Part shown: piece after piece, positions 1,627 through 18,613 of the stretch | How the letters are laid out: every line of letters begins with the position of its first letter | How positions within the stretch are numbered: the stretch's first letter is position 1 | Source of the DNA: a virus | Reading direction: 5' to 3' (one strand) | IMG/VR virus record: IMGVR_UViG_3300021378_000141 | Span: 1 to 26,151 of that record | DNA: 26,151 nucleotides | Program-made: the position numbers and the translations under genes | Notes under the pieces: generated by a model | The model's input: the letters and a program-made list of their open reading frames with translations, nothing else | Database searches by the model: none | Told to the model about the DNA's origin: nothing

Positions 1627-1827
1627 ATGAAGTTTTTTAAATGGTTAAGTTCGGGCCCAGTTGGTGGAAAGAATATCGTTGACAATGGCCCAGACCCAGA
1701 TGATATAACTGTGGAGAACGCATACAAAACAAGGTGGGTGTGGTACCATACTATACTTGCTTTAGAAATTTTAACTACTAACATACTCTTGGCATCTATT
1801 CTGGTGGTGCTTGCAATTAAGTTGTAA
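1627..1827 (+). CDS. Small membrane protein next to the endolysin
   Basis: The 66-residue protein has a soluble N-terminal half rich in Gly, Pro and Asp, then one hydrophobic helix at about residues 42-64 ending at the C-terminus. Its TAA overlaps the ATG of the endolysin by one base (TAATG), so the two are probably translationally coupled. Position and size would allow a holin or antiholin-like role, but one C-terminal helix is not diagnostic and better holin candidates exist in the window. I do not recognise the family. Confidence 0.7.
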   Translation: MKFFKWLSSGPVGGKNIVDNGPDPDDITVENAYKTRWVWYHTILALEILTTNILLASILVVLAIKL

Positions 1828-2321
1828 TGTTAGACATAATACGTAAATTATGGTGCAAACCTAAAGTGAAAGAAACTATGAATCGTGAAGCAGTATTCCA
1901 ACAACTAAAGATTGACGAAGGCGTCGTTTATGAGATTTACCTCGACCACCTCAACTATCCAACGTTCGGCGTTGGTCACCTCATCAAAGAAAGTGACGGA
2001 GAGTTCGGCGCTAAGGTCGGAACTAAAATATCCCCCGAAAGAGTTGCAGAGGCATTCGACCAAGACCTCGACATCGCAATCTCAGAATGTACTGTACTAT
2101 ACGGAGAAGGGTTCTGTTATCTACCAGACGAAGTCCAACAAATCTTGGTTAACATGATGTTTAACATGGGTCGACCAAGGCTAAGTAAGTTTAAGAAGAT
2201 GAACGCCGCGATTGAGAAGGGTGACTGGAAAGAGGCTGCGGTCGAAGGGAGGGACTCAAGATGGTATCATCAAGTAGGCTTCCGTTCCGCACGTTTGATG
2301 AAGAGGCTTGAAAATGTCTAA
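1827..2321 (+). CDS. Endolysin, T4 lysozyme family (GH24 muramidase)
   Basis: A peptidoglycan muramidase for host lysis. The 164-residue protein contains a T4-lysozyme core. KIDEGVVYEIYLD..NYPTFGVGHLI aligns with the catalytic region of T4 lysozyme and places the triad at Glu31, Asp40 and Thr46, exactly 20 residues after Glu11, Asp20 and Thr26 of T4. The C-terminal part (LVNMMFNMG, DSRWYHQVGFRSARLMKRLE) also fits. The length equals T4 lysozyme although about 17 residues are added in front; ATG 1878 is an alternative start giving the standard N-terminus. No signal peptide or SAR segment is clear, so export would need a holin. It overlaps both neighbours. Confidence 0.95.
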   Translation: MLDIIRKLWCKPKVKETMNREAVFQQLKIDEGVVYEIYLDHLNYPTFGVGHLIKESDGEFGAKVGTKISPERVAEAFDQDLDIAISECTVLYGEGFCYLPDEVQQILVNMMFNMGRPRLSKFKKMNAAIEKGDWKEAAVEGRDSRWYHQVGFRSARLMKRLENV

Positions 2322-3159
2322 TGTGATTTTCCAGTACATGATTGTTAGTGATGCAGTAGATGCTCGCGGTGGTATCAAAGGATGGGACGGTTCACGTTCT
2401 TCCCTATACAAAGAAGTAGCAGATATATCCCGTACCTCATTCGAAGAGTACGCAAAGAAGATTGGAGCAGAACACGTCTATTCCGACGAACGCGTTGCGA
2501 CCAAGGGTCACGGTTGTTCTACTTCCCTATTGCACGAATGCGCTCGTGTCTGGTTAGACCCTATGTTCGACCAGTACGATAACCTACTATTCGTCGATAC
2601 TGACATCGTGGTCAATACCGAAGAGAATATCTTTGACGTTATGGATTCGGGTGCGGATGTATACGGTGTCCTAGAGTCTGACTTCGTAACCGCTGATGGT
2701 GGTGGGTATAATTCTTGGGATAGTAACGAAGAGAACTATAGAAACTTCTGTCGTAAATTTGAGATGCATGACTGTCCTATCGTCCCTGTAATGCCCCCTA
2801 ATCGTCCGTCTAAGTTGATGATAATGAATACTGGTGTGGTTCTGTGGACTAAGGAAGCACGTCTCAGAGCTCGAGAAATGTTTGACAAATGGGAAGATTG
2901 GTGTTATACTGGGGACTTCCATATGTCGATAATGAACGACCAACCGTATATCTCGGCACAGTTCATGAAACATGACTTCGATGTAGAGACTATAGAGACT
3001 ACTTGGAACGACAGTCCACATTACGCAACTCAACAGGAATTCTTCGATAACGCGAAATTCTGTCACTATACTGGTGGTGAGTGGAAGGTGGATATGGTTA
3101 ACCACTGGAAGGAAAGAAAATTTAAAACAACTCCTTGGCAGAGAACACTAGTACCATGA
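2314..3159 (+). CDS. GT8-like glycosyltransferase with DxD motif
   Basis: The protein has 281 residues. A nucleotide-sugar-binding Rossmann-like half ends in LLFVDTDIVV, with the metal-binding DxD at Asp95/Asp97. Near the C-terminus CHYTGGEWK (His251, Gly254/255, Lys258) matches the second metal/diphosphate site of GT-A fold family 8 enzymes such as glycogenin or LgtC. Donor and acceptor sugars cannot be read from the sequence. ATG 2314 is chosen over the TTG at 2308 because AAGAGG sits just upstream. It overlaps the endolysin by eight bases and is the first member of the sugar-decoration set. Confidence 0.85.
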   Translation: MSNVIFQYMIVSDAVDARGGIKGWDGSRSSLYKEVADISRTSFEEYAKKIGAEHVYSDERVATKGHGCSTSLLHECARVWLDPMFDQYDNLLFVDTDIVVNTEENIFDVMDSGADVYGVLESDFVTADGGGYNSWDSNEENYRNFCRKFEMHDCPIVPVMPPNRPSKLMIMNTGVVLWTKEARLRAREMFDKWEDWCYTGDFHMSIMNDQPYISAQFMKHDFDVETIETTWNDSPHYATQQEFFDNAKFCHYTGGEWKVDMVNHWKERKFKTTPWQRTLVP

Positions 3160-3320
3160 TAGATAAGGAAGACGTGTTGGCTATCATAAACGAAGAATAT
3201 CTTAAATGTATGGAAGAGATGGGTTCTACCGAAAATAGTAGTCCCAACTTCTACTGCATTGTCCAGAATATCTCACTATTACAGTCCCTTCGCAAGCGCA
3301 TAGAAACTGAAATTAATTAA
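3156..3320 (+). CDS. Small hypothetical protein
   Basis: A 54-residue, mostly helical acidic protein with no membrane segment. ATG 3156 overlaps the TGA of the glycosyltransferase (ATGA), the standard coupling seen elsewhere here; an in-frame TTG at 3135 is less likely. It ends just before a strong sigma70 promoter. Unrecognised. Confidence 0.65.
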   Translation: MIDKEDVLAIINEEYLKCMEEMGSTENSSPNFYCIVQNISLLQSLRKRIETEIN

Positions 3321-3339
3321 TATATTTTCAAAATAAGTC

Positions 3340-3368
3340 TTGACAAACCCTCCATAATGTCGTATAAT
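3340..3368 (+). promoter_or_regulatory. Perfect sigma70 promoter, TTGACA-17-TATAAT
   Basis: TTGACA at 3340-3345 and TATAAT at 3363-3368 with a 17-base spacer. The bases after it (TATTGTGATGATTAGAGAGGG) resemble the early leaders of the 16-23 kb region and end in the ribosome site of the gene at 3404. It should drive 3404-4340 as an independent early unit inside a mainly late region. Confidence 0.85.
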
Positions 3369-3403
3369 ACCTAGGTATTGTGATGATTAGAGAGGGTTTT
3401 TTT

Positions 3404-3598
3404 GTGTTATTTGAAATATCAAATGAGGGTGATGGGATATCGGCAACCATTAGTGAGTCTCAGAATCCCCGACACAGATATCGTCTAGTGTATATGGATG
3501 ATGATTCAAGTGAGGTAATCTCTGCCGTGTTCGGAGATGACTACAATAGGTTTGTAACACGCGCACTTGAATTTGTTAGAGGAATAAAATTAAAATGA
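3404..3598 (+). CDS. Small hypothetical protein (GTG start)
   Basis: A 64-residue protein of probable beta structure followed by a helix (FVTRALEFVRG). GTG 3404 is chosen because AGAGAGGG (3390-3397) is correctly placed for it; the earlier in-frame GTG 3380 and ATG 3383 lie only about 12-15 bases from the -10 box and have no ribosome site. It is the first gene after the promoter at 3340 and overlaps the next gene by ATGA. Unrecognised. Confidence 0.65.
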   Translation: MLFEISNEGDGISATISESQNPRHRYRLVYMDDDSSEVISAVFGDDYNRFVTRALEFVRGIKLK

Positions 3599-3771
3599 AT
3601 GACATAACTATTCCAAATAGAGCTTTGGTAACCGATCTAGTCAATGAACATATTTATCGACCAGAAAATCCCAACTGGGGTCAACTGATGGTTGTTTTGT
3701 ACGACTATGGGTTTACATCTGGCCAAGTTTATAGTATAATGACTAGCGTAAGAGAAGAGGGTGTTGTGTGA
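3595..3771 (+). CDS. Small hypothetical protein
   Basis: A 58-residue ORF whose ATG overlaps the preceding stop (ATGA) and whose TGA overlaps the GTG of the next gene (GTGA). That tight coupling is the main reason to accept it. The product looks helical and soluble; the second half (LMVVLYDYGFTSGQVYSIMTSVREEG) could be a small helix-turn-helix-like unit, but I cannot show DNA binding. Unrecognised. Confidence 0.65.
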   Translation: MNDITIPNRALVTDLVNEHIYRPENPNWGQLMVVLYDYGFTSGQVYSIMTSVREEGVV

Positions 3772-4340
3772 AAGATAAGGTAATATTAGTAGATTGTGAC
3801 GGAGTTATTCTTGACTGGGGATATGCATTCCAACGTTGGATGACGCGTCATGGTTATGAGATAGTCGACCCAGACGTATATGACATCGGTAAGATGTATG
3901 GGTTGGAATCGAAAGAGAAGAAACAATTAGTTCGTATGTTCAATGAGTCTGCTTCGATTCGCAAGATTCCACCTCTGCGTGACGCAATCAAGTATATCAA
4001 GAAGTTGCACGAAGAACATGGTTATGTGTTTCACGCAATCACTTCTTTGAGTAACGATGAGTACTCTCAACATCTACGTACCAAGAACCTGTGTGAACTG
4101 TTCGGTAAGACTGTTTTCGAAACATATGTCTACCTAGATACTGGTGCCGATAAAGATGAAGAGTTGGCTGCCTACAAGGACACTGGGTGTCTGTGGGTAG
4201 AAGATAAGGTAGAGAACGCGGTTGCGGGTGCGAAAGTTGGACTAGAATCCGTCGTGATGTCTCATGTCTACAACCAAGATACCGATTTCCCACTGATGCG
4301 TAACTGGAAAGATATATACGAGTACGTAACAGGAAAATAA
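3768..4340 (+). CDS. HAD-superfamily phosphatase, nucleotidase-like
   Basis: The 190-residue protein has the HAD signature. Motif I VDCDGVILD gives the nucleophile Asp9 and acid/base Asp11, a motif II candidate follows in HAITSLSND (about residues 89-96), and an acidic motif IV lies in WVEDKVENA (Glu145/Asp146). Size and the alpha-helical cap after motif I fit the 5'(3')-deoxyribonucleotidase-like HADs carried by marine T4-type phages, which would release nucleosides from dNMPs. The substrate is inference; a sugar phosphatase is also possible given the neighbouring glycan genes. GTG start with GAAGAGGG upstream. A terminator follows. Confidence 0.85.
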   Translation: MKDKVILVDCDGVILDWGYAFQRWMTRHGYEIVDPDVYDIGKMYGLESKEKKQLVRMFNESASIRKIPPLRDAIKYIKKLHEEHGYVFHAITSLSNDEYSQHLRTKNLCELFGKTVFETYVYLDTGADKDEELAAYKDTGCLWVEDKVENAVAGAKVGLESVVMSHVYNQDTDFPLMRNWKDIYEYVTGK

Positions 4341-4373
4341 TTACTCCTTACTTGGTTTCCTGACCAACCTTTG

Positions 4374-4397
4374 GGACTCTTCGGAGTCCTTTTTTTT
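4374..4397 (+). terminator. Rho-independent terminator, TTCG loop
   Basis: Six-base-pair stem GGACTC / GAGTCC around a TTCG tetraloop, followed by eight T. It ends the 3404-4340 unit, ahead of the late promoter at 4400. Confidence 0.93.
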
Positions 4398-4399
4398 AA

Positions 4400-4407
4400 T
4401 ATAAATA
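4400..4407 (+). promoter_or_regulatory. T4-type late promoter (TATAAATA)
   Basis: Exact TATAAATA three bases after a terminator T-tract and 30 bases before the carbamoyltransferase ATG. Expected initiation is near 4413, so the carbamoyltransferase block begins a fresh late transcript. Confidence 0.8.
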
Positions 4408-4436
4408 CATATTTAATCTGATACAACAGGTGAATA

Positions 4437-5942
4437 ATGAGATACGTAGGATACAGTGAATTTTATCATGACTCCGGATTCGCTATCATCAATGAAGATG
4501 GTACGGTAGAGTTCGCAACTCACGGAGAACGGTACTCCAAGAAAAAGAACGATGCGAATATTCCGGACGCACTCTGGGACATGATTAACGATGATGACCA
4601 TGTTTCTTTCTATGAAGACCACGGCATCAAGTTTGATATGCGAGGGGGTGTTGAGGCAACTGGTAGAACCCCCGAACAGATTAAAAGTTCAGAAAGTTTC
4701 GAAATGTTTCCCTATCCAGAAGCTTCCGTCTACGATGCGCACCACCTACACCACGAATCACACTGTGCCTCTGCGTTCTACACACGTCCTTGGGACGATA
4801 AAGAAGACACCGTCCTAGTCTCTATCGATGGTGTTGGTGAGTTACAGACTGCCTGCATCATGGACTCCGATTTCAATCTAATCAAAGAATGGCACTACCC
4901 TAAGTCGGTAGGCCTAGTATACACCCTCACAACTAAGTTCCTTGGTCTACGTCCACTCGAAGATGAATACGTGGTCATGGGTCTCTCTGCGTATCATGAA
5001 ACGTGTCCTAAGTCGAAGGCAATCACTGACTGGTTGATACGTTGGTATAATAACCTAGAAGACATTGCACCAGAAGTTGAAATGGGTGTCGCGGTTGGTG
5101 GTGCTGAGTCTAAAAGAGAACAAGACCGTCTACGATTCCGAAGAGAATTTAAACGTAGAATACTATCTGTAGAGGACAAAGTAGCCGCACGTGCAACTCA
5201 AGACTTCGCGGATTATGCTATCATGCAAATCATGGGTACTGCAGCGCAGTACGGTAAGAAACTGTGTTACTCCGGTGGTTGCGCACAGAACGTTGTAATT
5301 AACTCACGATTGTTCGAGTTATTCGACGAAGTACATATCGCATGTTCACCGACAGACGCTGGTTCAAGTCTAGGTACCGCCGCACGGTCATGGTCAAAGG
5401 CGACAGGTAAAGATAAACTAATCTGGACTCCATACTCTGGTTATGACATCCAACGACCAATCGACCCTAGTGAAGTCGTAGACCATCTAATCAATCAAAA
5501 GGTGTGTGGTATTGCAAACGGTAAGGCAGAGTTCGGGCCGCGTGCTCTAGGCAACCGTTCCCTTATTGCAGACGTACGTTATGACGTACAGGATACAGTG
5601 AATGGTATTAAACGTCGACAGAAGTATCGTCCATTTGCCCCTGCAATATTAGAAGAGTATGCAGAAGAGTACTTCGACGGCCCTATGAACGACCACATGC
5701 AGTTCACTTCTAAGGCATTGCACGACTACGCTCCTGTTACCCACGTAGACGGAACCGCACGTGTACAAATTGTAAAGAAAGACTGTGAGTCTATCTTCCG
5801 TAAGGTTATCGAAGAATACCATGATAGAACCGGAGTACCAATGCTACTAAATACTTCCCTCAACATTCGCGGGCGGCCTATGGTCAACGATGAACATGAC
5901 GCTGAGATGTGGGAACAGAAGTATGATGTTAAGGTGTTCTAA
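4437..5942 (+). CDS. O-carbamoyltransferase, NodU/CmcH/TobZ family
   Basis: Enzymes of this family use carbamoyl phosphate and ATP to put a carbamoyl group on a hydroxyl of a sugar or antibiotic. The 501-residue protein has an N-terminal Kae1-like half with a His cluster HHLHHESH (102-109), typical of the metal site, and a GGCAQNVVINSRL segment. The C-terminal half carries two hallmarks, EFGPRALGNRSLIAD (about 365-379) and NTSLNIRGRPMV (about 471-482). It is somewhat shorter than many NodU proteins but both halves are complete. A dedicated late promoter lies upstream. Among glycosyltransferases, the acceptor is most likely a glycan, though this cannot be read from sequence. Confidence 0.93.
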   Translation: MRYVGYSEFYHDSGFAIINEDGTVEFATHGERYSKKKNDANIPDALWDMINDDDHVSFYEDHGIKFDMRGGVEATGRTPEQIKSSESFEMFPYPEASVYDAHHLHHESHCASAFYTRPWDDKEDTVLVSIDGVGELQTACIMDSDFNLIKEWHYPKSVGLVYTLTTKFLGLRPLEDEYVVMGLSAYHETCPKSKAITDWLIRWYNNLEDIAPEVEMGVAVGGAESKREQDRLRFRREFKRRILSVEDKVAARATQDFADYAIMQIMGTAAQYGKKLCYSGGCAQNVVINSRLFELFDEVHIACSPTDAGSSLGTAARSWSKATGKDKLIWTPYSGYDIQRPIDPSEVVDHLINQKVCGIANGKAEFGPRALGNRSLIADVRYDVQDTVNGIKRRQKYRPFAPAILEEYAEEYFDGPMNDHMQFTSKALHDYAPVTHVDGTARVQIVKKDCESIFRKVIEEYHDRTGVPMLLNTSLNIRGRPMVNDEHDAEMWEQKYDVKVF

Positions 5943-6271
5943 TGACACCAGAAAATGAGTCATCAGGCTTAGACATGTTTGGTAACCCTGTTGGGACAGA
6001 GTATAGAGAAGATATCTGTCCACCAGACCTTATGTGTATTCCTAGAGAAACATGGGATACCATATTAGAAGAGAACCAACTAGCATGGGATTCTGTGAAT
6101 AATGTAGTTGCACCGAAAGGTGATGCACAAGCAGTCGCAGAGTTTACATGGCACATATTATTCCTCACTCCGTGGGAACTTGCTTACATCGCATTACCAA
6201 TGAGCGTATTAGCATTTTATGGTTTATCCATATATGCAATATTTAAATGGTTACAAAAGAGGTTTAAATAA
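5942..6271 (+). CDS. Small membrane-anchored protein
   Basis: 109 residues: a soluble, acidic N-terminal region of about 70 residues, then a hydrophobic stretch at about 70-102 that could form one long or two short spans, ending in a basic WLQKRFK tail, consistent with cytoplasmic C-terminus. TAATG overlap with the carbamoyltransferase suggests coupling. I do not recognise the family; it could be a membrane partner of the neighbouring enzymes or of the holin candidate that follows. Confidence 0.7.
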   Translation: MTPENESSGLDMFGNPVGTEYREDICPPDLMCIPRETWDTILEENQLAWDSVNNVVAPKGDAQAVAEFTWHILFLTPWELAYIALPMSVLAFYGLSIYAIFKWLQKRFK

Positions 6272-6277
6272 AATAAC

Positions 6278-6631
6278 ATGTTTTCAGAACAACCAGTAGT
6301 AACACCAACTCCAGAAGCAAAACCATTCAAACAGAAGATTGAGCTTGAAGTAGAGTTTGACACATCGAGCAAAGAGGTCAAGACAAGTAAGTTTGAAGGG
6401 TTGTTGCAGTTCTCGGATGTAATCGATGCGTATCGACTTTTCCCGCGAGCATTCATCGCTACTTATCTGTACCTGCTCATCGAAGTAACTCAATGGTTCA
6501 TGACGATACCTGAACCCAATGCATCACAGGCGGGACTTATCTCGGTCGTGGTTGGTGCGGGTGCAGCATGGTTTGGTCTATACACATCTACAGGTTCCGC
6601 ACGTAAAGTCAAAAGTATTAAGACTAACTAA
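6278..6631 (+). CDS. Putative holin (two-span membrane protein)
   Basis: The 117-residue protein has a charged N-terminal domain and two hydrophobic segments at about 54-74 (RAFIATYLYLLIEVTQWFM) and 84-103 (GLISVVVGAGAAWFGLY), then a basic tail. The segment QAGLISVVVGAGAAWFGLY resembles proteins annotated as holins in marine phages, from memory. A holin would permeabilise the inner membrane to release the endolysin at 1827. It competes for this role with the product of 10294-10764. It overlaps the following gene by TAATG. Confidence 0.7.
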   Translation: MFSEQPVVTPTPEAKPFKQKIELEVEFDTSSKEVKTSKFEGLLQFSDVIDAYRLFPRAFIATYLYLLIEVTQWFMTIPEPNASQAGLISVVVGAGAAWFGLYTSTGSARKVKSIKTN

Positions 6632-7515
6632 TGAAACCATCTGAACTAGTGACTTGGCGAGGGACGCCAGGTGTCGGAGACTTTATGTGGGCATTGAACG
6701 CGTGTCACAAATATGCGGCAGATGTAAATATAAGAAAAATCAATCTGGAGATTCACTGGGAACACGGTGAAGACTATCTTCATCACTTCGAAGACCCCGA
6801 AACAATCATAGAACGATGTGACTACATCCATAATTTCTATCACCAGAAGGAACGCGTTGAGGTACACCATATCTTTAATGCTAAGGGTAGATACCAAGAC
6901 TGGAAGTTTGACGATGATGTTATTTTGGAAACAAACGGAGAACGTAGGATAGCGGCAATACATAGTCACAAGGCTCGGTTCTGGTTCGAATCCGACTTTT
7001 ACGATGATAGGCCAGGCAGTACTGCTCCCGATAATGATTGGATATTTCGCAAGGACGCATTCCAAGACTATGACCCTAAACGAATTGTCTTCTGGAGACC
7101 TACATGGAATGCAGAGAAACCCCGTACATGGAAACGTATATTTGAAAATGACGACTGGGATAAGTTAATCAAACATTTCGAGGGTCTGGGGTTCAAGATG
7201 CACGAACTGTCATACCGCACCCCCGCATCTGAAGCGATGCACCTCATCTCTACATCAAGAATGGTTATCTGTTACGATGGTATCTGGCACTATGTTGCAA
7301 AGAATTTTGCACGACCACTCGTGGTAATCAGCGGTGAAGGAGTGACTAAATACCATACACCGAATGCGTTAAGAATAAGTCCAGACAAATCTAAAGTAAC
7401 TGACGGTAAGGATGCATGGTGGTGGATAGAACGTGTCGAAGAACTGTTGAACCAAACTAAACGAAAAGCAGTAGAATATGAAGAGAGGATGAAAACTTAT
7501 TATGGAAATGACTAG
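6631..7515 (+). CDS. Glycosyltransferase, GT9/heptosyltransferase-like
   Basis: A 294-residue protein. The N-terminus TWRGTPGVGDFMWALNACHK matches the GVGDF/L..A.P..L motif at the start of ADP-heptose:LPS heptosyltransferases and related GT-B enzymes. The C-terminal part has SRMVICYDGIWHYVAKNFARPLVVI, like the donor-binding D..(M/W)H.A.A...P segment of GT9. Donor and acceptor are unknown. It overlaps the radical SAM gene by 14 bases, so the two are likely made together. Confidence 0.75.
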   Translation: MKPSELVTWRGTPGVGDFMWALNACHKYAADVNIRKINLEIHWEHGEDYLHHFEDPETIIERCDYIHNFYHQKERVEVHHIFNAKGRYQDWKFDDDVILETNGERRIAAIHSHKARFWFESDFYDDRPGSTAPDNDWIFRKDAFQDYDPKRIVFWRPTWNAEKPRTWKRIFENDDWDKLIKHFEGLGFKMHELSYRTPASEAMHLISTSRMVICYDGIWHYVAKNFARPLVVISGEGVTKYHTPNALRISPDKSKVTDGKDAWWWIERVEELLNQTKRKAVEYEERMKTYYGND

Positions 7516-8491
7516 AGAAACATTTCAGATTGACCGTGCCGTAATCGAAGTCGCGGGGGGATGTAACTACTCTTGTTCTATGTGTCCACAGGACTTGCGT
7601 GAAGGTGGACGACACAAAGGGTTCCGTCGTATCATGAAACTTGATGAGTTCGAGAAGTACGTTGCTGATTGCGCACAGTATGGACTGAACGTTGTCAACT
7701 TAGACGGTTCAGGTGAAGCCACGATGGCAAAGAACCTACCTGAGTATATCAAGGTAACGAAGAAGTATGGGGCGAAGTGCTTCATCTTCTCTAACGGATT
7801 CAAGATGGAGGGTCAGTACATGCGTGACTGCGTGGACGCGGGACTGGACTTCTATAGATTCTCATTCATTGGTGCAGACGAACAAGACTATTCCAAGTGG
7901 ATGTACAATGCTGTGGGTGGTCACTACGCACAGATTAGACGTAACATCGAAGAGATGGTTGCGTATGTAAAGGAGTCGGGTTCAGACTGCGTGGTATCAA
8001 CTTACCACTTGATTACCGATAATGATAACATCGACCAAGAACTAGAGAAGTACAAGACTCTAGTAGATGAGTTGGGTGTCAAGACAGAAATCTGGAAGAT
8101 GCACAACTGGTCTGGTGTTCAGGATATATCGGCGTCCGGTGTACGTGAAGGTAAAGTAAAGACATGTGGTCGACCATTCTCTCCAGATGTAGTAATCAGG
8201 GCCGGTGGACTTGAAAAGAAAACTGGTGCGGTACACCCATGCTGTCAAGTGTTAGGACGGGACGAAGAGGCCGTGTTGGGTCACTGTTCCGACGACAACA
8301 TCTTAGATATATTCTTTGGTGAAGAGTATGAAACTCTACGAGAGCAACACCGCACCGGAGACTACCCAGACTTTTGTAAGAGTTGTGACTTCTTGGTAGA
8401 TGACCCAGAAGTTCTGGTATACACCAACCACGAACGTGATCTGATGAAGATGCACGGAACTAATTTCACACTTAACGATTATAGGGATTAA
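7502..8491 (+). CDS. Radical SAM enzyme with SPASM/twitch-like C-terminus
   Basis: 329 residues. GGCNYSCSMCPQ supplies the CxxxCxxC cluster (Cys21, Cys25, Cys28) that binds the SAM-reducing 4Fe-4S. LDGSGEATM at about 61-69 is the usual GGE/GEP-like SAM-contact motif, and FIFSNGF is the following strand. A second Cys set (about 222, 247, 248, 262, 292, 295) fits a SPASM or twitch auxiliary-cluster domain. Such enzymes modify peptides or, in sugar clusters, perform dehydrogenation or epimerisation; the substrate here is unknown. Two near starts, ATG 7502 and ATG 7508, are possible. It sits between glycosyltransferase-like and sulfotransferase-like genes. Confidence 0.88.
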   Translation: MEMTRETFQIDRAVIEVAGGCNYSCSMCPQDLREGGRHKGFRRIMKLDEFEKYVADCAQYGLNVVNLDGSGEATMAKNLPEYIKVTKKYGAKCFIFSNGFKMEGQYMRDCVDAGLDFYRFSFIGADEQDYSKWMYNAVGGHYAQIRRNIEEMVAYVKESGSDCVVSTYHLITDNDNIDQELEKYKTLVDELGVKTEIWKMHNWSGVQDISASGVREGKVKTCGRPFSPDVVIRAGGLEKKTGAVHPCCQVLGRDEEAVLGHCSDDNILDIFFGEEYETLREQHRTGDYPDFCKSCDFLVDDPEVLVYTNHERDLMKMHGTNFTLNDYRD

Positions 8492-8492
8492 T

Positions 8493-8696
8493 ATGTTTAA
8501 TTTAGAAAAACTTTCTTTTTACGGTATGATGGCAAAGACTTGGATTCAAGCACGCCTTGGCGAACGCACAACATATGATGGTGTAGTCATCATCGCAATC
8601 TGTGGTAGTTACCTCATCTTTGATGGTATCATCACATTAGGCGCATACGCTGGTATTCTATATGGTCTATGGACTATGTGGGAACAACAAAAATAA
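8493..8696 (+). CDS. Small two-span membrane protein
   Basis: 67 residues. A short soluble start (MFNLEKLSFYGMMAKTWIQ) is followed by two closely spaced hydrophobic segments at about 31-44 and 48-61 and a short polar tail. It starts one base after the radical SAM stop, with AGGGA upstream. This resembles small membrane proteins near the lysis genes of marine T4-type phages, but I cannot assign a role. Confidence 0.7.
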   Translation: MFNLEKLSFYGMMAKTWIQARLGERTTYDGVVIIAICGSYLIFDGIITLGAYAGILYGLWTMWEQQK

Positions 8697-8730
8697 ATTA
8701 TATAATAAAAAGTTCTCAGAAGTATTTTAT

Positions 8731-8738
8731 TATAAATA
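8731..8738 (+). promoter_or_regulatory. T4-type late promoter (TATAAATA)
   Basis: Exact TATAAATA in the 139-base gap before the sulfotransferase-like gene. Expected initiation near 8744 gives a leader of about 92 bases, the longest of the late leaders here, which contains two perfect palindromes (8759-8770 and 8786-8795). Confidence 0.75.
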
Positions 8739-8835
8739 ATAAGACTTATTCCGTATTTGACTGGCCAGTCCAGCGAGTTCCATTTCGCACGTGCGGTGTA
8801 AGAAACTCTTTAAAGAATTTACCGAGGAACAAACA

Positions 8836-9543
8836 ATGAAACACAGCATTGTAACACTTAACGATCACTACTTGGTCGGCAGTGCCGCATCGGGTCATGA
8901 TTTCGTTCAAAACATGTATGGTATGTATATCCGTTACGAGCAAAACCTAGACACATCAAAAACCAATCTAGAAATTTCTTCTATAGCGCAAGACAAGTTG
9001 TATAAACCATTGTTTTGGACATCGCTGGGTTGGATTTCAGCACACGACCCTATCTCATCCGAAACAATCATAGATGGAATGAACAATAATGCTATTGTAA
9101 CTTCTCAACTATTGAGAATAAAGAGAGACTATAAAGATGTATTGGTCTCTGCTTGGCAGACATGGTCTTCAGAATCATCTTGGGAGGAATTCTGCGCGAG
9201 TCCTATTGGATTCTCTATGATAAAATCTTTCGAAGAAGCTGCTAACCAGTTTACATATGAAACAGTAATATCTTACGAAACCCTAGTAGAGAACCCACAT
9301 CGGGTATTAACTTCTATAGTAGAGCACCTTCTACCGCGTCAAGATAACCCAGAACTAGAAACTTTTGGACAAGCTAAACGCACCATTAATTTGGATGTTA
9401 TCGACGCTGTTGTTCAGGACTCTAAAGTACGCGATTGTCGTCCAGGCGTATCACAAGGTCTACTAGAAAGTGTTGGTGTTTGGAAGCAATTCATATCAAA
9501 GACTCAAGCAGAAGAAGTAGATGAGTTCGTAGAATCACTATAA
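8836..9543 (+). CDS. Sulfotransferase-like protein
   Basis: 235 residues from ATG 8836, chosen over an in-frame GTG at 8791 because CGAGGAA lies eight bases upstream. The N-terminal VGSAASGHDFVQNMYGM resembles the 5'-phosphosulfate-binding loop of PAPS-dependent sulfotransferases (usually xPRSGTT). VISYETLVENPHRVLTSIVEHLL matches the RYEDL...P....I..FL segment, and the C-terminal VGVWKQFIS..QAEEVDEF fits the GRW...LS..Q...I motif. The usual Arg/Thr of the first loop are replaced, so activity is uncertain. A terminator follows, so it forms a single-gene late unit. Confidence 0.65.
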   Translation: MKHSIVTLNDHYLVGSAASGHDFVQNMYGMYIRYEQNLDTSKTNLEISSIAQDKLYKPLFWTSLGWISAHDPISSETIIDGMNNNAIVTSQLLRIKRDYKDVLVSAWQTWSSESSWEEFCASPIGFSMIKSFEEAANQFTYETVISYETLVENPHRVLTSIVEHLLPRQDNPELETFGQAKRTINLDVIDAVVQDSKVRDCRPGVSQGLLESVGVWKQFISKTQAEEVDEFVESL

Positions 9544-9570
9544 TCTTTAGTTAGGTTTAAGATAGATAAA

Positions 9571-9602
9571 GACGGGATTGGAAACTTTCCCGTCTTTTTT
9601 TT
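9571..9602 (+). terminator. Rho-independent terminator
   Basis: Seven-base-pair stem GACGGGA / TCCCGTC (9571-9577 and 9588-9594), ten-base loop, then eight T. It closes the sulfotransferase-like gene 28 bases after its stop. Confidence 0.9.
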
Positions 9603-9616
9603 GTTCTGAGAATAAT

Positions 9617-10276
9617 ATGGTTAGAAAAAGTTTTTTGACAGGATGTGACTTTAACACCGAATGGCAGCTGCCTTGGTTTATAGAGAACTTCATTGAACAT
9701 TCTGTGGGGATTTTGCAGATAGCGGACTTTGGTATGACAGATGATATGTTAGATTTCATCGAACATCATCCTAGATTCGGTAAACAACTTTATGTTCTTA
9801 GTTTTGAAAACAAAGTTGACGGGTGGTTTAAGAAGCCACGGGCAATATATGAGGCGACTCGCGATAAGTTCACGATATGTTGGTTAGATACCGACTGTCA
9901 AATAGATGGTGACGTAGATTCTATTTGGGGATTCTATGAAGAAGGTAGAATGGGTATGGTAGTAGACCGCCCTTGGACTAAGAGACGCCCTGGCAATGGG
10001 GACTGGTACAACTCTGGAGTAGTCCTGAGTGACCGCAACGAAACTCTGATTAACTGGATGAATTCTTGTGAAGAAAACCAAACTGAATCTGACCAGTACA
10101 TCCTACACCATATACACACCCCCATAGAAAGGTTAAGCAAAATATACCCATTACCACATAAATACAATACGTTACGGTTAGACTACATAGATAAGTTAGC
10201 TGTAGATAATCCTATCATTATACACCATACTGGAAAGAAAGGTAATGATGTGATTAAACAACAGATGAATTTTTAG
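9617..10276 (+). CDS. GT8-like glycosyltransferase with DxD motif
   Basis: 219 residues from ATG 9617. The frame is open further upstream, but that part lies within the terminator, so the later start is preferred. CWLDTDCQIDGDV supplies the DxD metal motif (Asp91, Asp93), NSGVVL is the usual acceptor-side strand, and PIIIHHTGKKGND near the C-terminus matches the His/Lys diphosphate site. It is the second GT8-like enzyme in the window; the two are clearly diverged (281 versus 219 residues). Specificity is unknown. No promoter is evident after the terminator, so expression may depend on readthrough. Confidence 0.82.
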   Translation: MVRKSFLTGCDFNTEWQLPWFIENFIEHSVGILQIADFGMTDDMLDFIEHHPRFGKQLYVLSFENKVDGWFKKPRAIYEATRDKFTICWLDTDCQIDGDVDSIWGFYEEGRMGMVVDRPWTKRRPGNGDWYNSGVVLSDRNETLINWMNSCEENQTESDQYILHHIHTPIERLSKIYPLPHKYNTLRLDYIDKLAVDNPIIIHHTGKKGNDVIKQQMNF

Positions 10277-10293
10277 TTACTGGAGAATATAAT

Positions 10294-10764
10294 ATGTTAA
10301 GTGGATTAATAGGTTCACTACTAGGATTCGGGGGTTCCCTTGTCCCAGCAGTGACAGACCATTTCGCTGCAAAGCGAAACAACGAATTTGAATTAAAGAA
10401 GATGGAGAAGATGGCTGAACTACGGGCAGCTGGATTCGACCATGATATGAAGATGTTCGAGACCAAGGCGGCAGACGATGAACACGCTCGATTGATCGAA
10501 CACGACATCTCAATCAACCGAGGTACAGGGTTCATTGCCGGACTACAGAAGTCGGTACGCCCTATAATCACATACTGTTTCTTTGTCCTGTTTGCGGTGA
10601 TAGAGGTTAACATGTTACAACAAGCACTAGCGAATGGAACAGACCTTTCGAGTGCATTGAACACCTTATGGGATGAAGATACCAAGGCGATATTCGCTGC
10701 GATTATTTCTTTCTGGTTCGGTTCACGTGCGGTAGAGAAGGCACGAGAACGTCAAATAAAATGA
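10294..10764 (+). CDS. Putative holin, GTA_holin_3TM-like
   Basis: 156 residues. A Gly-rich hydrophobic N-terminus (LSGLIGSLLGFGGSLVP) is followed by a long charged helix (about 27-80), then two hydrophobic segments at about 91-112 and 131-146, the second ending FWFGSRAVEKARERQ. This order, with a conserved RP before the first main span, fits the three-span holin family first described for gene-transfer-agent release (PF11351 from memory). A holin would time endolysin release. ATG 10294 follows CTGGAG at good spacing. It heads the group nuclease, lipoprotein, DUF115-like, small membrane protein. Confidence 0.8.
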   Translation: MLSGLIGSLLGFGGSLVPAVTDHFAAKRNNEFELKKMEKMAELRAAGFDHDMKMFETKAADDEHARLIEHDISINRGTGFIAGLQKSVRPIITYCFFVLFAVIEVNMLQQALANGTDLSSALNTLWDEDTKAIFAAIISFWFGSRAVEKARERQIK

Positions 10765-10773
10765 AGGTGAAAG

Positions 10774-11124
10774 ATGTATAATTATGAAGCGACAATACGC
10801 AGATGGGTGGATGGTGATACTGTCGACGTTGATATTGACCTTGGTTTTGGTCTTGTTTACTCTAATCAGCGGTTGCGTCTTTATGGTATTGATGCTTACG
10901 AGTCGCGCACTAGAAACCTTGACGAAAAGAAAAAGGGTCTTGCAGCAAAAGATTACGTCAATGAGATGGCTCCGGTAGGTACCAAGGTAAGTATCATTAC
11001 CCATAAAACAGGTAAGTACGGACGTATCCTCGCAGAAGTGTTCGTCGAAACCAAATATAATGAATGGAAGTGTATCAACACCCTACTAACAGAGGAAGGT
11101 CATGCGACGCGGTATCCTGTATAA
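10774..11124 (+). CDS. Staphylococcal-nuclease-like nuclease (thermonuclease fold)
   Basis: The 116-residue protein is a minimal SNase domain. RRWVDGDTVDVDIDLGF is the first beta-strand pair with the metal-binding Asp, RLRLYGIDAYESR carries Arg35, Asp40 and Glu43, and GKYGRILAEV carries Arg84. These equal or lie within three positions of the catalytic Arg35, Asp40, Glu43 and Arg87 of the S. aureus enzyme, so it is probably an active Ca2+-dependent DNA/RNA nuclease. There is no signal peptide, so it acts in the cytoplasm, perhaps on host nucleic acid. AAGGTGAAAG precedes the ATG. It overlaps the lipoprotein gene by 23 bases. Confidence 0.93.
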   Translation: MYNYEATIRRWVDGDTVDVDIDLGFGLVYSNQRLRLYGIDAYESRTRNLDEKKKGLAAKDYVNEMAPVGTKVSIITHKTGKYGRILAEVFVETKYNEWKCINTLLTEEGHATRYPV

Positions 11125-11464
11125 AATAGCCCTTGCCATAGTGGTATTGTTTGTGGTATCATGTGACCCGTCTCCAGAGAAAAGAATAACGGGGACACAG
11201 GACTTTACTGGGGTTGAATTTCCTATTACCGTCTATACATATGATAGTCGGACAGAACTAAACAAAGCAATAAAGGATAGGAACCCTAGTAAACGCACGG
11301 TCGAAGGACTCGCACTATGGTTTCTGGTAAAATCAACTAGAGATATAAAACGATGTGAGATTCATGTCGTAACTCCAAGAAGTATTGATGATGAACACGT
11401 ACTTACTTGGGGACATGAACTAGCCCACTGTATATACGGTGCATATCACAAGGAACCAAAATGA
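11102..11464 (+). CDS. Lipoprotein with HExxH metallopeptidase-like motif
   Basis: 120 residues. The N-terminus is a lipoprotein signal (RRGILYKIALAIVVLFVVSC) with a VVSC lipobox; Cys21 would be lipidated and Asp22 at position +2 would favour inner-membrane retention under the enterobacterial rule. Near the C-terminus GHELAHCIYGAYH gives His105, Glu106 and His109, with His116 as a possible third ligand. This is close to, but one residue off, the metzincin HExxHxxGxxH pattern. The body is very short for a peptidase. GAGGAAGG precedes the ATG inside the nuclease gene. It could act on envelope or peptidoglycan proteins late in infection, which is inference. Confidence 0.8.
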   Translation: MRRGILYKIALAIVVLFVVSCDPSPEKRITGTQDFTGVEFPITVYTYDSRTELNKAIKDRNPSKRTVEGLALWFLVKSTRDIKRCEIHVVTPRSIDDEHVLTWGHELAHCIYGAYHKEPK

Positions 11465-12093
11465 AACGAGTCAATATATTAGGTAACGGTGATCACGCTG
11501 CCTTATATGAGAAAGGTACTAACGGAGATTTGCTCGTGTGCAATATGCCTCCTATAGAACTGAGTAAGGAAGAAGTATATGCGTCTTGCATGGTTGACTT
11601 CAAAATGATGGAGGCTCTGGAAAAGGGTGAAGTCAAGTTGGATGAGTATGACTGGGTTCTGGGTACACGCCCGCGTAGATGGATGGAAGTGAAGGCCGCG
11701 TTCTACTTGAAGTACTCCCAGAACATACGGGGATTCCATACTTACGTCCCACCCTATGCTCAGTTGCCCGGGCATAAACTGTCAGAAGCTGCATCTAACT
11801 ATAGTTGCGGTCACATGGCAGTAGACTATGCGTGTCGCATCATGAAAGCGAAAGAGGTACATCTGTATGGGTTCGACGCAATGTTTGATATGAACCTAAA
11901 CAGTTATACAGACAACTTCTTGAAGTCTAACAGGACTGCGTTAAACGTACACCGTATGGCCAGTAACTGGCGTCCTATATGGTCTGGATTCTTTAGAGAG
12001 TTCAGTGATGTTCAATTTGTCATTCATCATGGTCATGCAGATATTAAATTATCGTTACCTGAGAATGCGAGAGTGGAGGTTAGAGCACTATAA
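11461..12093 (+). CDS. DUF115/GT42-like putative glycosyltransferase
   Basis: 210 residues. The N-terminal VNILGNGDHA resembles the nucleotide-binding GNG/GPS start of DUF115 and CST-I-type sialyltransferase folds. SCGHMAVDYACRIMKAKEVHLYGFDAMFD corresponds to the S.G..A...A...G..eI.L.GfD segment typical of that superfamily. A final HHGH could hold the active-site His. The donor might be CMP-activated if GT42-like, but this is inference. ATGA overlap with the lipoprotein gene and TAATG overlap with the next. Confidence 0.65.
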   Translation: MKRVNILGNGDHAALYEKGTNGDLLVCNMPPIELSKEEVYASCMVDFKMMEALEKGEVKLDEYDWVLGTRPRRWMEVKAAFYLKYSQNIRGFHTYVPPYAQLPGHKLSEAASNYSCGHMAVDYACRIMKAKEVHLYGFDAMFDMNLNSYTDNFLKSNRTALNVHRMASNWRPIWSGFFREFSDVQFVIHHGHADIKLSLPENARVEVRAL

Positions 12094-12230: not shown

Positions 12231-12255
12231 AAAAAGGGGACTTTCGTCCCCTTCT
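12229..12255. terminator. Terminator between convergent units
   Basis: Stem GGGGAC / GTCCCC (12236-12241 and 12246-12251) around TTTC. Read leftward the stem is followed by seven T, a strong terminator for the minus-strand pair. Read rightward it is followed by TTCTTC, weaker but plausible. It separates the two convergent late units. Confidence 0.88.
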
Positions 12256-12280: not shown

Positions 12281-13126
12281 TTAGAATACTTTAATCATGG
12301 ATTTCATAATATCGTATTCTTCCGGGCGGCCTGTTGACATATTTTCGTCCCAATTTGAACGTAGGGCAAATGTTGTGTCGACCATTGTCTTGCTGTCTTT
12401 CTCTTCACCATTGAACCATTTAACTGAAGACGGTGCTCCGTAATAAATGTCGACCATATCAAATTCTGGTGTGCAGTATGGTGCGAAGATTTCTCGTACT
12501 TGAGATTCTTCAAAACCAACTTCTTGGTCTTCCATAGGCACGCCTAGGAAAACTACTGCATCAAACTTTTCATGTTCACCCTCAAGTGTCCACGATGAAT
12601 GTCCATGTTTGTACTGTTGTGAACAAGACATGAAATTTTCTTTCATTTCGTTGATGTCATAAATTTCGTGCATTACACCTTTGTACTTATCTTCAGGTGG
12701 ACGCGGAATGACAAAAGAACAGTCATACTGGTACATCTTCATAAGTGTTGGTATGAACTGAGCAATGATGTTCATATCTGGAAAAGATTGCATCCCCTCT
12801 CTTTCTGGTGGAAGTATGTCAATCATACGACCAGCAAACTTATCAAGCATCCAGTGAGTCTGGCCATCATTGAAGTGACCAACAAACAGGATATTCTTAT
12901 ATCCACAAGACATCAACGCGTTAACGAACATTGGGGCACGTGAAAGAGCTTCTTCCGCCATGTCGATTTCTAGATTCTTGTAACGTAGATACTTACCACG
13001 AACAGTAGTAAGTTCCTTTAACTGATTGTTTAAGAAACGTGCTAGACGCACCTTTTCTGTTTCTGGGAAGAAGGTCTGTGATTGACCGTCTTTTAAAATG
13101 ACTTCGTCTTTTGGGTTGTAAAACAT
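12281..13126 (-). CDS. Hypothetical protein, possible Rossmann-like fold
   Basis: 281 residues on the minus strand, second gene of a two-gene unit. A helical N-terminal region (about 20-70) precedes NILFVGHFNDGQTHWMLDKFAGRMIDILPPE, a strand-loop-helix that could be a nucleotide- or SAM-binding unit, and FDAVVFLGVPMED later resembles a motif IV strand. The Gly-rich loop of a true methyltransferase is weak, so the fold is only a suggestion. Position beside late genes makes a structural or virion-associated role equally possible. The ATG at 13126 lies three bases after the stop of the upstream gene. Confidence 0.75.
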   Translation of the reverse strand: MFYNPKDEVILKDGQSQTFFPETEKVRLARFLNNQLKELTTVRGKYLRYKNLEIDMAEEALSRAPMFVNALMSCGYKNILFVGHFNDGQTHWMLDKFAGRMIDILPPEREGMQSFPDMNIIAQFIPTLMKMYQYDCSFVIPRPPEDKYKGVMHEIYDINEMKENFMSCSQQYKHGHSSWTLEGEHEKFDAVVFLGVPMEDQEVGFEESQVREIFAPYCTPEFDMVDIYYGAPSSVKWFNGEEKDSKTMVDTTFALRSNWDENMSTGRPEEYDIMKSMIKVF

Positions 13127-13129
13127 TGG

Positions 13130-13384
13130 TTAGGATCCCTTATAGATGTTTTGTATGTATTCTTCGAATTCCTCGATTTTGTCCAAACGGTTCGGCCACA
13201 GGATATATTCCTTCTCAGGGTTCGCCTTGAGGTTAGTCAAGAGTGGCTGAATCGCATTGTACAAGTCGTCGAGACGTGTTGTGGTTTCGTCTATTGCATC
13301 TGAGACTGACTCTAACTGCTGGGCAGATTCGAGCTCTGACTCATCTACTACGGTGAAACCGAAATCAAATAGTTCTTTATTCAT
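13130..13384 (-). CDS. Conserved small T4-type phage protein, coiled coil
   Basis: 84 residues: MNKELFDFGFTVVDE, then a helical region rich in Glu, Asp and Leu (about 17-50) likely to form a coiled coil, then NPEKEYILWPNRLDKIEEFEEYI. This layout resembles a small protein widespread in marine T4-type phages whose role I do not know. A TATAAATA octamer lies only six bases upstream of the ATG, so a late transcript would begin close to the start codon. No ribosome site is visible. Confidence 0.8.
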   Translation of the reverse strand: MNKELFDFGFTVVDESELESAQQLESVSDAIDETTTRLDDLYNAIQPLLTNLKANPEKEYILWPNRLDKIEEFEEYIQNIYKGS

Positions 13385-13389
13385 ACGTT

Positions 13390-13397
13390 TATTTATA
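13390..13397 (-). promoter_or_regulatory. Leftward T4-type late promoter (TATAAATA)
   Basis: On the minus strand TATAAATA runs from 13397 to 13390. With T4 spacing, initiation would fall at about 13384, the A of the ATG of 13130-13384, predicting a leaderless or nearly leaderless transcript. Confidence 0.65.
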
Positions 13398-13463: not shown

Positions 13464-13685
13464 ATGAATAAATTTAGAATCGTTGAGAAAGAGAATTGTT
13501 ATGGTGGATCCATGTTTTACGTCCAACAGAAGGGTTTGTTGTGGGGGTGGAACTATGTTAGGGATATCCATGATATGGTGATCACTTTTCAAACCGAAGA
13601 GTTTGCTTTGAGATCTATCAGAGAATGGAATGCTTGCAGATACTATAAGATCGTCAACATTACAGAGATGTCGAGTGATGAGTAA
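13464..13685 (+). CDS. Small hypothetical protein, paralogue A
   Basis: 73 residues, predicted mixed alpha/beta, with GLLWGWNYV and a C-terminal KIVNITEM. First gene after the 13407 promoter, with AGGGGGGATAC upstream. It is clearly homologous to the product of 14422-14646 over its full length, sharing FRIVEK/YRIVEK, NCY, FYVQ.KGLLWGWNYV, EFAL.SI.EW and VNITE. Function unknown. The DNA similarity reaches into the ribosome site of the next gene. Confidence 0.75.
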   Translation: MNKFRIVEKENCYGGSMFYVQQKGLLWGWNYVRDIHDMVITFQTEEFALRSIREWNACRYYKIVNITEMSSDE

Positions 13686-13893
13686 AATAATCAAACAGTT
13701 TATAGCAAAAGGCGAAGACGGACATAAACACTATGCTGGTTGTTTTTTTGAAGTAGAAGCAGAAACCTTGGATGAAGCACGAGAAATCTTGATAAACGAT
13801 CAATTCAATGGTTATTTGTACGAAGAAACATATCAATTGATTAGCACAACACCGCACACAATTTGTGTGAATTACGAGGCGAGTGAGAAATGA
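13678..13893 (+). CDS. Small hypothetical protein
   Basis: 71 residues from ATG 13678, overlapping the preceding gene by eight bases, with GAGATGTCGAG as ribosome site. The frame is open further upstream but that part shadows 13464-13685. The sequence reads like a compact alpha/beta domain (FFEVEAETLDEAREILI) found in small phage proteins. Unrecognised. ATGA overlap with the next gene. Confidence 0.65.
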   Translation: MSKIIKQFIAKGEDGHKHYAGCFFEVEAETLDEAREILINDQFNGYLYEETYQLISTTPHTICVNYEASEK

Positions 13894-14255
13894 ATTTAAC
13901 AGATAAAGAAATACTAGACTTTGTAAAAGAGAATCTAACACTAGGTAAGGATGAGAACGGTCGCTACGTGTTAAAAGAAGTGAACTGCGATGTTGATGGG
14001 GATGTCGAAGGTAATGTCAAGGGTAATGTTGATGGTAATGTTTATGGCAATGTTGGGGGCGATGTTGATGGGCATGTCGAAGGCAATATTGATGGCAATG
14101 TTTGTGGCAATGTTTATGGCAATGTTGAGGGAGATGTTGAAGGTAGTGTCAATGGGGATGTCTGCGGCGATGTCTGCGGCAATGTTCGTGGCAATGTTGT
14201 TTGGGATGTTTATGGCAAGGTTTTAGGTAGGGTTTATGGTGAGGGACGTAAATAA
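13890..14255 (+). CDS. Tetrapeptide-repeat protein, likely beta-helix
   Basis: 121 residues. After a helical N-terminal part (1-32) the chain consists of 21 consecutive four-residue units of consensus G-[DN]-V-x (residues 33-116) and ends GEGRK. Val every fourth residue with Gly-Asp/Asn turns is expected for a narrow left- or right-handed beta-helix or a polymerising fibre, related in principle to bactofilin-like and pentapeptide-repeat proteins but with a different period. Some positions hold Cys, Trp or Tyr. Role unknown; DNA mimicry or scaffold formation are possible but untested. Confidence 0.8.
   Translation: MNLTDKEILDFVKENLTLGKDENGRYVLKEVNCDVDGDVEGNVKGNVDGNVYGNVGGDVDGHVEGNIDGNVCGNVYGNVEGDVEGSVNGDVCGDVCGNVRGNVVWDVYGKVLGRVYGEGRK
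13979..14237 (+). repeat. 12-bp degenerate tandem repeat inside 13890-14255
   Basis: About 21 copies of a 12-base unit close to GGCAATGTTNATGG-type sequence encode the G-[DN]-V-x tetrapeptides. Units vary in the third and last codons, so the tract is old enough to have diverged but still kept in frame. Confidence 0.85.
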
Positions 14256-14422: not shown

Positions 14423-14646
14423 TGAGATATAGGATAGTTGAGAAAAAGAATTGTTATAACGAATCCATCTTCTATGTTCAAGAGAAGGGTTTGTTGTGGG
14501 GGTGGAACTATGTTATGGATCTCCATGACATGATACTCACTTTTCGAACCAAAGAGTTTGCTTTGAAATCTATCAAAGAATGGTATGGTTACAAATACAA
14601 TAAGGTCGTCAACATCACAGAGGTGTCGAATGAAAGACCGGATTAA
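14422..14646 (+). CDS. Small hypothetical protein, paralogue B
   Basis: 74 residues from GTG 14422 with AAGAAAGAG upstream. Full-length homologue of 13464-13685: both keep the NCY, FYVQ, GLLWGWNYV, EFAL.SI.EW and VNITE blocks. Differences are spread along the protein, which suggests an older duplication with both copies maintained. Function unknown. Confidence 0.75.
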   Translation: MRYRIVEKKNCYNESIFYVQEKGLLWGWNYVMDLHDMILTFRTKEFALKSIKEWYGYKYNKVVNITEVSNERPD

Positions 14647-16892: not shown

Positions 16893-16903
16893 GAGCTTTT
16901 GCC

Positions 16904-18584: not shown

Positions 18585-18613
18585 TTGACACCTGTTTCAA
18601 AAACGAGTATAAT
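18585..18613 (+). promoter_or_regulatory. Perfect sigma70 promoter, TTGACA-17-TATAAT
   Basis: TTGACA 18585-18590, TATAAT 18608-18613. The leader TTGTATTGAATTGATAAAGAG is shared almost base for base with the leader after the 21661 promoter. Confidence 0.92.

Follow-up and report, generated by a model that had tools for sequence, protein, structure and literature searches.

A putative glycan-modification island beside the lysis genes in a T4-like marine phage clade with hardly any cultured member

Pelagimyophages carry radical SAM cassettes as well as GT8 genes in their host recognition cluster (Zaragoza-Solas et al. 2020, PMC7029224), and in the SAR11 myophages HTVC008M and Mosig, genes for a carbamoyltransferase and a radical SAM protein occur together with UGDH (UDP-glucose dehydrogenase), epimerase, methyltransferase or GT8-like genes. 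Here we describe an island of sugar-related genes at positions 2314-12093 of the 26-kb virus record IMGVR_UViG_3300021378_000141 (positions 1-26,151; this whole stretch is called the window below). An earlier sequence-only reading had listed seven glycan-related reading frames in the island and had called their combination unusual for a T4-type phage. All seven are present, on the plus strand, but the second claim was too strong: since HTVC008M and Mosig pair a carbamoyltransferase with radical SAM, this chemistry is a recurring theme of marine T4-like phages, and GT8 and radical SAM cassettes occur in pelagimyophages as well. New here are the fixed core, its position next to the lysis genes and the modular slot; the glycan theme was already known from SAR11 phages. 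The island enzymes probably act jointly on a glycan.

The island resembles the pelagimyophage, HTVC008M and Mosig systems in clustering GT8-type, radical SAM, NodU-type carbamoyltransferase, UGDH or epimerase, and methyltransferase genes in marine T4-like genomes. However, the pelagimyophage clusters are non-syntenic, whereas the island has a fixed-order core that lies next to lysis genes in the stretch from the NrdB region to gp32. The pelagimyophage cluster lies between VrlC and gp14 with the tail fibres. By contrast, in Phage C48C1 (OQ984149), the only relative with a name, the island (93-104 kb) falls outside the tail-fibre region, which spans 132-156 kb and continues into head-tail genes at 5.8 kb (VrlC is unannotated there). 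The carbamoyltransferases of the island are only 26-28% identical to those of the HTVC008M/Mosig group, and the radical SAM proteins of HTVC008M and Mosig are not close homologues of the island enzyme (Mosig: hhalign 77%; no tblastn match). GT9 and sulfotransferase genes are features of the island, and none was seen in the pelagimyophage, HTVC008M or Mosig clusters.

A conserved core and a variable slot

Scans of viral contigs with four island proteins as queries (radical SAM, GT9, sulfotransferase and carbamoyltransferase) recovered more than 200 loci. For co-occurrence counts, each distinct radical SAM gene was represented by a single contig with sufficient flanking sequence (71 upstream, 64 downstream); these contigs share ancestry and the counts are not independent events. 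Upstream of the radical SAM gene, the GT9 gene is present in 71/71 contigs, GT8a (the first of two GT8-type genes) and the carbamoyltransferase in 67/71 each, a HAD phosphatase-like gene in 65/71 and the lysozyme gene in 61/71. Downstream, the DUF115-like gene is found in 44/64, the sulfotransferase-like gene in 35/64 and the second GT8-type gene, GT8b, in 21/64. In the closest group, with radical SAM identities of 85% or more, every contig carries the lysozyme, GT8a, HAD, carbamoyltransferase, GT9, sulfotransferase-like and DUF115-like genes, and 12/29 also carry GT8b. In a comparison by hand, all 12 of the 12 clade contigs found through gp32 and having at least 19 kb upstream carried the radical SAM gene.

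Five genes make up the stable set: GT8a, HAD, carbamoyltransferase, GT9 and radical SAM. The sulfotransferase-like, GT8b and DUF115-like genes are peripheral and lineage-variable. Co-occurrence of the seven genes of the sequence-only reading, whose list lacked the accompanying HAD gene, therefore holds for the core and not for these three clade-limited members; among core genes we saw neither single copies scattered in unrelated places nor a structure-based placement in other families. Gene order is kept even where GT9 is only 41% identical. C48C1 carries the whole island in identical order, with per-protein identities of 47-93% and a different glycosyltransferase in the GT8b slot; its island genes are annotated chiefly as hypothetical. 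One relative (L059) has a rearranged island with parts kept, the carbamoyltransferase now lying upstream of the lysozyme and a GT8 gene downstream. A second, divergent radical SAM protein is encoded within the same island (L059:12307-13419).

All island enzymes are under purifying selection, with a constrained core and a fast-evolving sulfotransferase slot. Ratios of non-synonymous to synonymous substitution (dN/dS), measured against the relative L148, were 0.03 for radical SAM, 0.05 for GT8a and for the carbamoyltransferase, 0.08 for GT9, 0.07 for the DUF115-like protein, 0.15 for lysozyme and 0.19 for the sulfotransferase-like protein. Since gene order is conserved in scores of contigs and purifying selection acts on the genes, the set is more than a chance assembly.

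Four genome-length relatives (G003 to G006) were read for gene content; apart from C48C1, the genome-length records are contigs that carry no completeness estimate. In G003 and G004 the island resembles that of the window. G005 and G006 begin the island with GT8a-HAD-carbamoyltransferase-GT9-radical SAM and close it with GT8b-DUF115-like, and have 12-16 extra genes between the two blocks. By Pfam, these inserts include GT25 ('LPS biosynthesis'; LPS, lipopolysaccharide), GT8, Sulfotransfer_2, several methyltransferases, a cupin, a glutamine-amidotransferase-like protein and a HAD-nucleotidyltransferase fusion. Because the slot behind radical SAM is taken up mostly by sugar-related genes in these divergent relatives, we regard the locus as a modular glycan island. 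A UDP-glucose dehydrogenase and an NDP-sugar epimerase are encoded in 5/5 genome-length relatives.

It could be argued that the genes are independent morons that share one variable locus and form no pathway. The sulfotransferase-like, GT8b and DUF115-like genes do come and go, and in the window's clade HAD has a sigma-70-like promoter and a terminator of its own. Yet the core stays together even at 41% GT9 identity and partly through the L059 rearrangement, and the inserted genes are overwhelmingly sugar-related, which makes this explanation quite improbable. The putative glycan-making core is a lineage trait of a large, nearly uncultured T4-like marine clade, with cassettes swapped around it, and not an occasional auxiliary gene.

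The window phage is a member of this almost uncultured clade. Its gp32 is 87% identical to that of C48C1, an unclassified member of the Kyanoviridae with no host listed, and 49% identical to those of cyanophages. A cyanobacterial host was considered and set aside: psbA was found in 0/7 genome-length records of the clade, so this is not a typical cyanophage. C48C1 also encodes an isocitrate lyase and a MauG-type dihaem cytochrome c peroxidase (44175-45416 and 57990-59411 of OQ984149), common to one or two relatives, and these may hint at a heterotrophic host.

Enzyme families of the island

The family labels of the sequence-only reading stood up for two GT8-type proteins, a GT9 fold, a NodU/TobZ-type carbamoyltransferase, a radical SAM/twitch enzyme and a sulfotransferase-like protein; the assignment to DUF115 is weak. 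Coordinates, and the family scores not discussed here, are given in Table 1.

The catalytic motifs of GT8 enzymes are DxD, NxG, DQ and HxxG. In GT8a the corresponding residues (D95/D97, N172/G174, D209/Q210 and H251/G254) are invariant among 31 relatives; in GT8b the motifs were read by eye. For the GT9-like and DUF115-like proteins, relatives were aligned and structures were predicted. For the AlphaFold model of the GT9-like protein (predicted local distance difference test, pLDDT, 89.5), the 22 best PDB matches were all GT9 heptosyltransferases (WaaF, TibC and WaaC), and every match with E < 0.001 was GT9, which confirmed the earlier label by fold search. TM-scores were ~0.4-0.5 at 11-14% identity and so support the fold, not the substrate. 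The protein has no Pfam match and reaches 15.2 bits with the NCBIfam heptosyltransferase II model (cut-off 134.6). Since these models are not reached, we call it GT9-fold rather than a GT9 member: it shares the GT-B fold with WaaC, WaaF and TibC, but is too divergent for the family models.

The carbamoyltransferase matches Carbam_trans_C (1.4e-45, 155.4 bits, cut-off 27) and Carbam_trans_N (1.4e-28, 100.8 bits, cut-off 24), and aligns with the novobiocin, GdmN and TobZ O-carbamoyltransferases. Like those enzymes it has two domains and aligned His- and Asp-bearing segments, and carbamoyl transfer is its predicted activity. The known enzymes act on antibiotics.

Radical SAM proteins with a full SPASM domain have two auxiliary clusters and seven Cys. 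In the phage enzyme, CxxxCxxC is invariant in 21 relatives, and at the C-terminus only Cys 222, 247 (with 248 adjacent), 292 and 295 are, so that it falls short of a full SPASM and is probably twitch-like with one auxiliary cluster. BtrN and other twitch-domain enzymes share the CxxxCxxC core and C-terminal cysteines resembling those of a single auxiliary cluster, although profile similarity to BtrN is weak (~25 bits). The reading frame overlaps that of GT9 at 7502-7515. A pattern-based genome scan for cellular relatives, which reaches close relatives only, returned two phage-like contigs binned in metagenome-assembled genomes and one remote match; tblastn against the phage collection gave no match outside C48C1. 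The island provides a well-conserved radical SAM family without an assigned substrate.

The HAD protein is only a candidate member of the glycan pathway. The sulfotransferase-like protein scores 18.4 bits with Pfam Sulfotransfer_1 (cut-off 22) and its resemblance to 3'-phosphoadenosine-5'-phosphosulfate (PAPS) sulfotransferases is one of motifs only, GSAASG and RDYKDVLV having been seen by eye; identity among relatives ranges from 22 to 87%. The DUF115-like model (pLDDT 89) has unnamed phage proteins as its nearest structural neighbours, with DUF115/MptE lower (BFVD, E ~2e-3). This model had no significant match in the PDB, and hhalign to one MptE-like protein gave 2.3%.

Transcription signals and candidate acceptors

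Promoter calls are motif matches, and expected counts come from shuffles that keep base composition only. The T4 late promoter octamer TATAAATA precedes the carbamoyltransferase gene in 34/66 distinct relatives (0.7 expected) and the sulfotransferase gene in 27/31 (0.45 expected); hardly any other island gene has it upstream in the relatives scanned. In C48C1 the octamer lies ahead of the head-tail adaptor, tail sheath, tail tube, gp32 and baseplate genes; it precedes virion genes and gp32 and so behaves as a T4 late promoter. A sigma-70-like site no more than 450 bp upstream of HAD occurs in 57/67 relatives (0.7 expected), and the hairpin between HAD and the carbamoyltransferase is terminator-like in 40/59 (4.0 expected). 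Sigma-70-like sites are also present inside the GT9 coding region upstream of radical SAM (26/67 relatives, 1.3 expected), which may reflect coding constraint or an internal promoter. A 12/12 sigma-70 match at 1353-1381 was set aside, as the second of its hexamers runs into the start codon (ATG) of the following gene and the first is not conserved.

In divergent relatives, HAD and the carbamoyltransferase are near-contiguous behind TTGACA-17-TATAAT or close matches, with no late octamer. Promoter type thus appears to differ between subclades, with a late octamer in the window's clade and sigma-70-like sites in the divergent relatives, which weakens any argument from timing to the acceptor. This apparent change within one gene order offers a handle on when the glycan is needed.

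We infer the reaction order, timing and purpose of the island as follows. A common stem would be built and tailored by the core (GT8, GT9-fold, O-carbamoyltransferase and radical SAM, with HAD alongside). Lineage-specific terminal transferases would be supplied by the slot behind radical SAM; in the window these are the sulfotransferase and GT8b, and other lineages have GT25, GT8, methyltransferases and further genes. The host would provide some of the activated sugars, and the phage's own UDP-glucose dehydrogenase and NDP-sugar epimerase, whose genes lie outside the island, would provide others. T4 late promoters would drive the carbamoyltransferase and sulfotransferase units, along with lysis genes, in the window's clade. 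An altered host envelope glycan might keep other phages from adsorbing, or keep the progeny of the phage itself from binding to debris.

Tentatively, we favor a host envelope glycan (LPS or similar) as the acceptor. The best GT9-fold matches include the LPS-core heptosyltransferases WaaF and WaaC, and a GT9 fold, GT8 and GT25 are all typical of LPS assembly. Carbamoylation of the LPS core is known in P. aeruginosa. O-chain modification has been proposed for the GT8 genes of pelagimyophages (PMC7029224). Several points weigh on the other side. TibC, among the best fold matches with WaaF and WaaC, glycosylates a protein. No transmembrane (TM) segments were predicted in the island enzymes; as cytosolic proteins they would reach newly made LPS only, and late expression would leave little time to alter the existing surface. 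The timing signal itself varies between subclades.

Some of the same observations fit a different acceptor. Late octamers stand before the carbamoyltransferase and sulfotransferase units as they do before virion genes, the enzymes are cytosolic, TibC is a protein heptosyltransferase, and capsid glycans have been reported in the F1 mycobacteriophages Che8 and Rita (PMC11256854). The island could then glycosylate virion proteins (capsid, tail or fibres) late in infection and give a sugar-coated particle whose coat varies by lineage. We consider this possible but rather doubtful, as the HAD-carbamoyltransferase-GT9-radical SAM genes of divergent relatives lie behind a sigma-70-like promoter with no late octamer, and most island families are LPS-assembly families. 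Late expression as proof of a virion acceptor was rejected on account of those sigma-70-like promoters. That virion proteins bear a carbamoylated, sulfated and radical-SAM-edited glycan, so that the whole clade wears a lineage-specific sugar coat made from interchangeable cassettes, is unlikely. Whether such phages modify the host envelope, as we prefer, or their own particle becomes directly testable.

Modified DNA, named as a possible acceptor by the sequence-only reading, is disfavored. In this scenario the enzymes would hypermodify phage DNA, with 5-hydroxymethylcytosine carbamoylated, glycosylated or sulfated against restriction. NodU-type carbamoyltransferases are able to act on this base (PMC8670742), and DNA hypermodification as a shared function was followed after a TET/JBP oxygenase was found in C48C1; presence tests across relatives led us to reject it. 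The thymidylate synthase/dCMP hydroxymethylase family (PF00303) was found in 0/7 genome-length relatives and TET/JBP (PF12851) in 1/17 records, C48C1 only. C48C1 encodes TET/JBP, GLF (UDP-galactopyranose mutase) and Dam, none of which was found in four other genome-length relatives, and its methyltransferase is of the adenine type. Furthermore, carbamoyltransferase genes beside thymidylate synthase are linked to modified contigs, and those beside glycosyltransferases, as here, to unmodified ones (PMC8670742). DNA is accordingly a most improbable acceptor. In C48C1 the TET/JBP-type oxygenase, a 344-aa protein of unknown function and the mutase stand in a row (49583-53030 of OQ984149), an arrangement not present in the other genome-length relatives searched.

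Lysis genes and other features of the window

The sequence-only reading had described the glycan genes as mixed with lysis genes. A lysozyme, a holin-like protein and small TM-like proteins do lie among or beside them (Table 1), but the association is positional only, since the endolysin is exchanged among relatives (T4 lysozyme for peptidase M15 in divergent relatives) while the glycan core stays. The slot of the small hydrophobic protein at 6278-6631 holds an open reading frame (ORF) of ~109 aa in divergent relatives. That the small lipoprotein-like protein is a spanin is only a guess. Rfam, tRNA and repeat scans returned nothing for the island.

Table 1. Genes and signal-like sites of the island and its flanks (window coordinates)
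Feature	Position	Strand	Evidence or remark
T4-type lysozyme (endolysin), island neighbour	1827..2321	+	Pfam Phage_lysozyme 37.6 bits, cut-off 22.3
GT8a, GT8-family glycosyltransferase, core	2314..3159	+	Pfam Glyco_transf_8 26.9 bits, cut-off 24.3
Sigma-70 promoter-like site	3340..3368	+	12/12 match
Sigma-70 promoter-like site	3712..3740	+	11/12 match, directly before HAD
HAD-family phosphatase-like protein, travels with core	3768..4340	+	phrog_420 9.7e-35; NT5C and HAD_2 under cut-off
Intrinsic terminator-like hairpin	4373..4390	+	Between HAD and carbamoyltransferase
T4 late promoter octamer	4400..4407	+	37 bases ahead of carbamoyltransferase gene
NodU/TobZ-type O-carbamoyltransferase, core	4437..5942	+	Both Pfam domains
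Small protein, one TM-like segment	5942..6271	+	In carbamoyltransferase operon
Small hydrophobic protein, putative holin candidate	6278..6631	+	phrog_10198
GT9-fold glycosyltransferase, core	6631..7515	+	AlphaFold model and PDB fold matches
Radical SAM/twitch (short SPASM) enzyme, core	7502..8491	+	Radical_SAM 1.6e-12, SPASM 7.8e-7; most conserved
Small protein, one TM-like segment	8493..8696	+	
T4 late promoter octamer	8731..8738	+	Before sulfotransferase slot
Sulfotransferase-like protein, peripheral	8791..9543, likely start 8836	+	Pfam under cut-off; fast-evolving
GT8b, second GT8-type glycosyltransferase, peripheral	9578..10276, likely start 9617	+	Glyco_transf_8 22.0 bits, just under cut-off 24.3
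3-TM holin-like protein	10294..10764	+	GTA_holin_3TM 20.1 bits, under cut-off 24.8
Staphylococcal-nuclease-like protein	10774..11124	+	Pfam SNase above cut-off
Small lipoprotein-like protein	11102..11464	+	N-terminal hydrophobic segment and Cys
DUF115/MptE-like protein (weak assignment), peripheral	11461..12093	+	No Pfam match
Intrinsic terminator-like hairpin	12234..12253	+	Closes second late unit

Downstream of the island, a conserved 281-aa protein without a family match and an 84-aa partner are encoded on the minus strand (12281-13384) and transcribed against it; the late octamer lies ahead of this pair in 30/35 relatives, and in the window it stands at 13397. Further downstream, leader-like sequences that carry promoter-like elements recur in front of small genes (at 16902, 17823 and 19585, and at 18607, 21682 and 22306). 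A direct duplication of 207 nt, 85% identical, occupies 13472-13678 and 14427-14633. A 12-nt tandem repeat (13890-14255) encodes a protein of ~20 four-residue repeats (V-x-G-N/D), possibly a beta-solenoid. Near the window start, a 24-nt tandem repeat (112-246) encodes DVEDSRPW/DVEDSAPW in an ORF that is cut by the window start.

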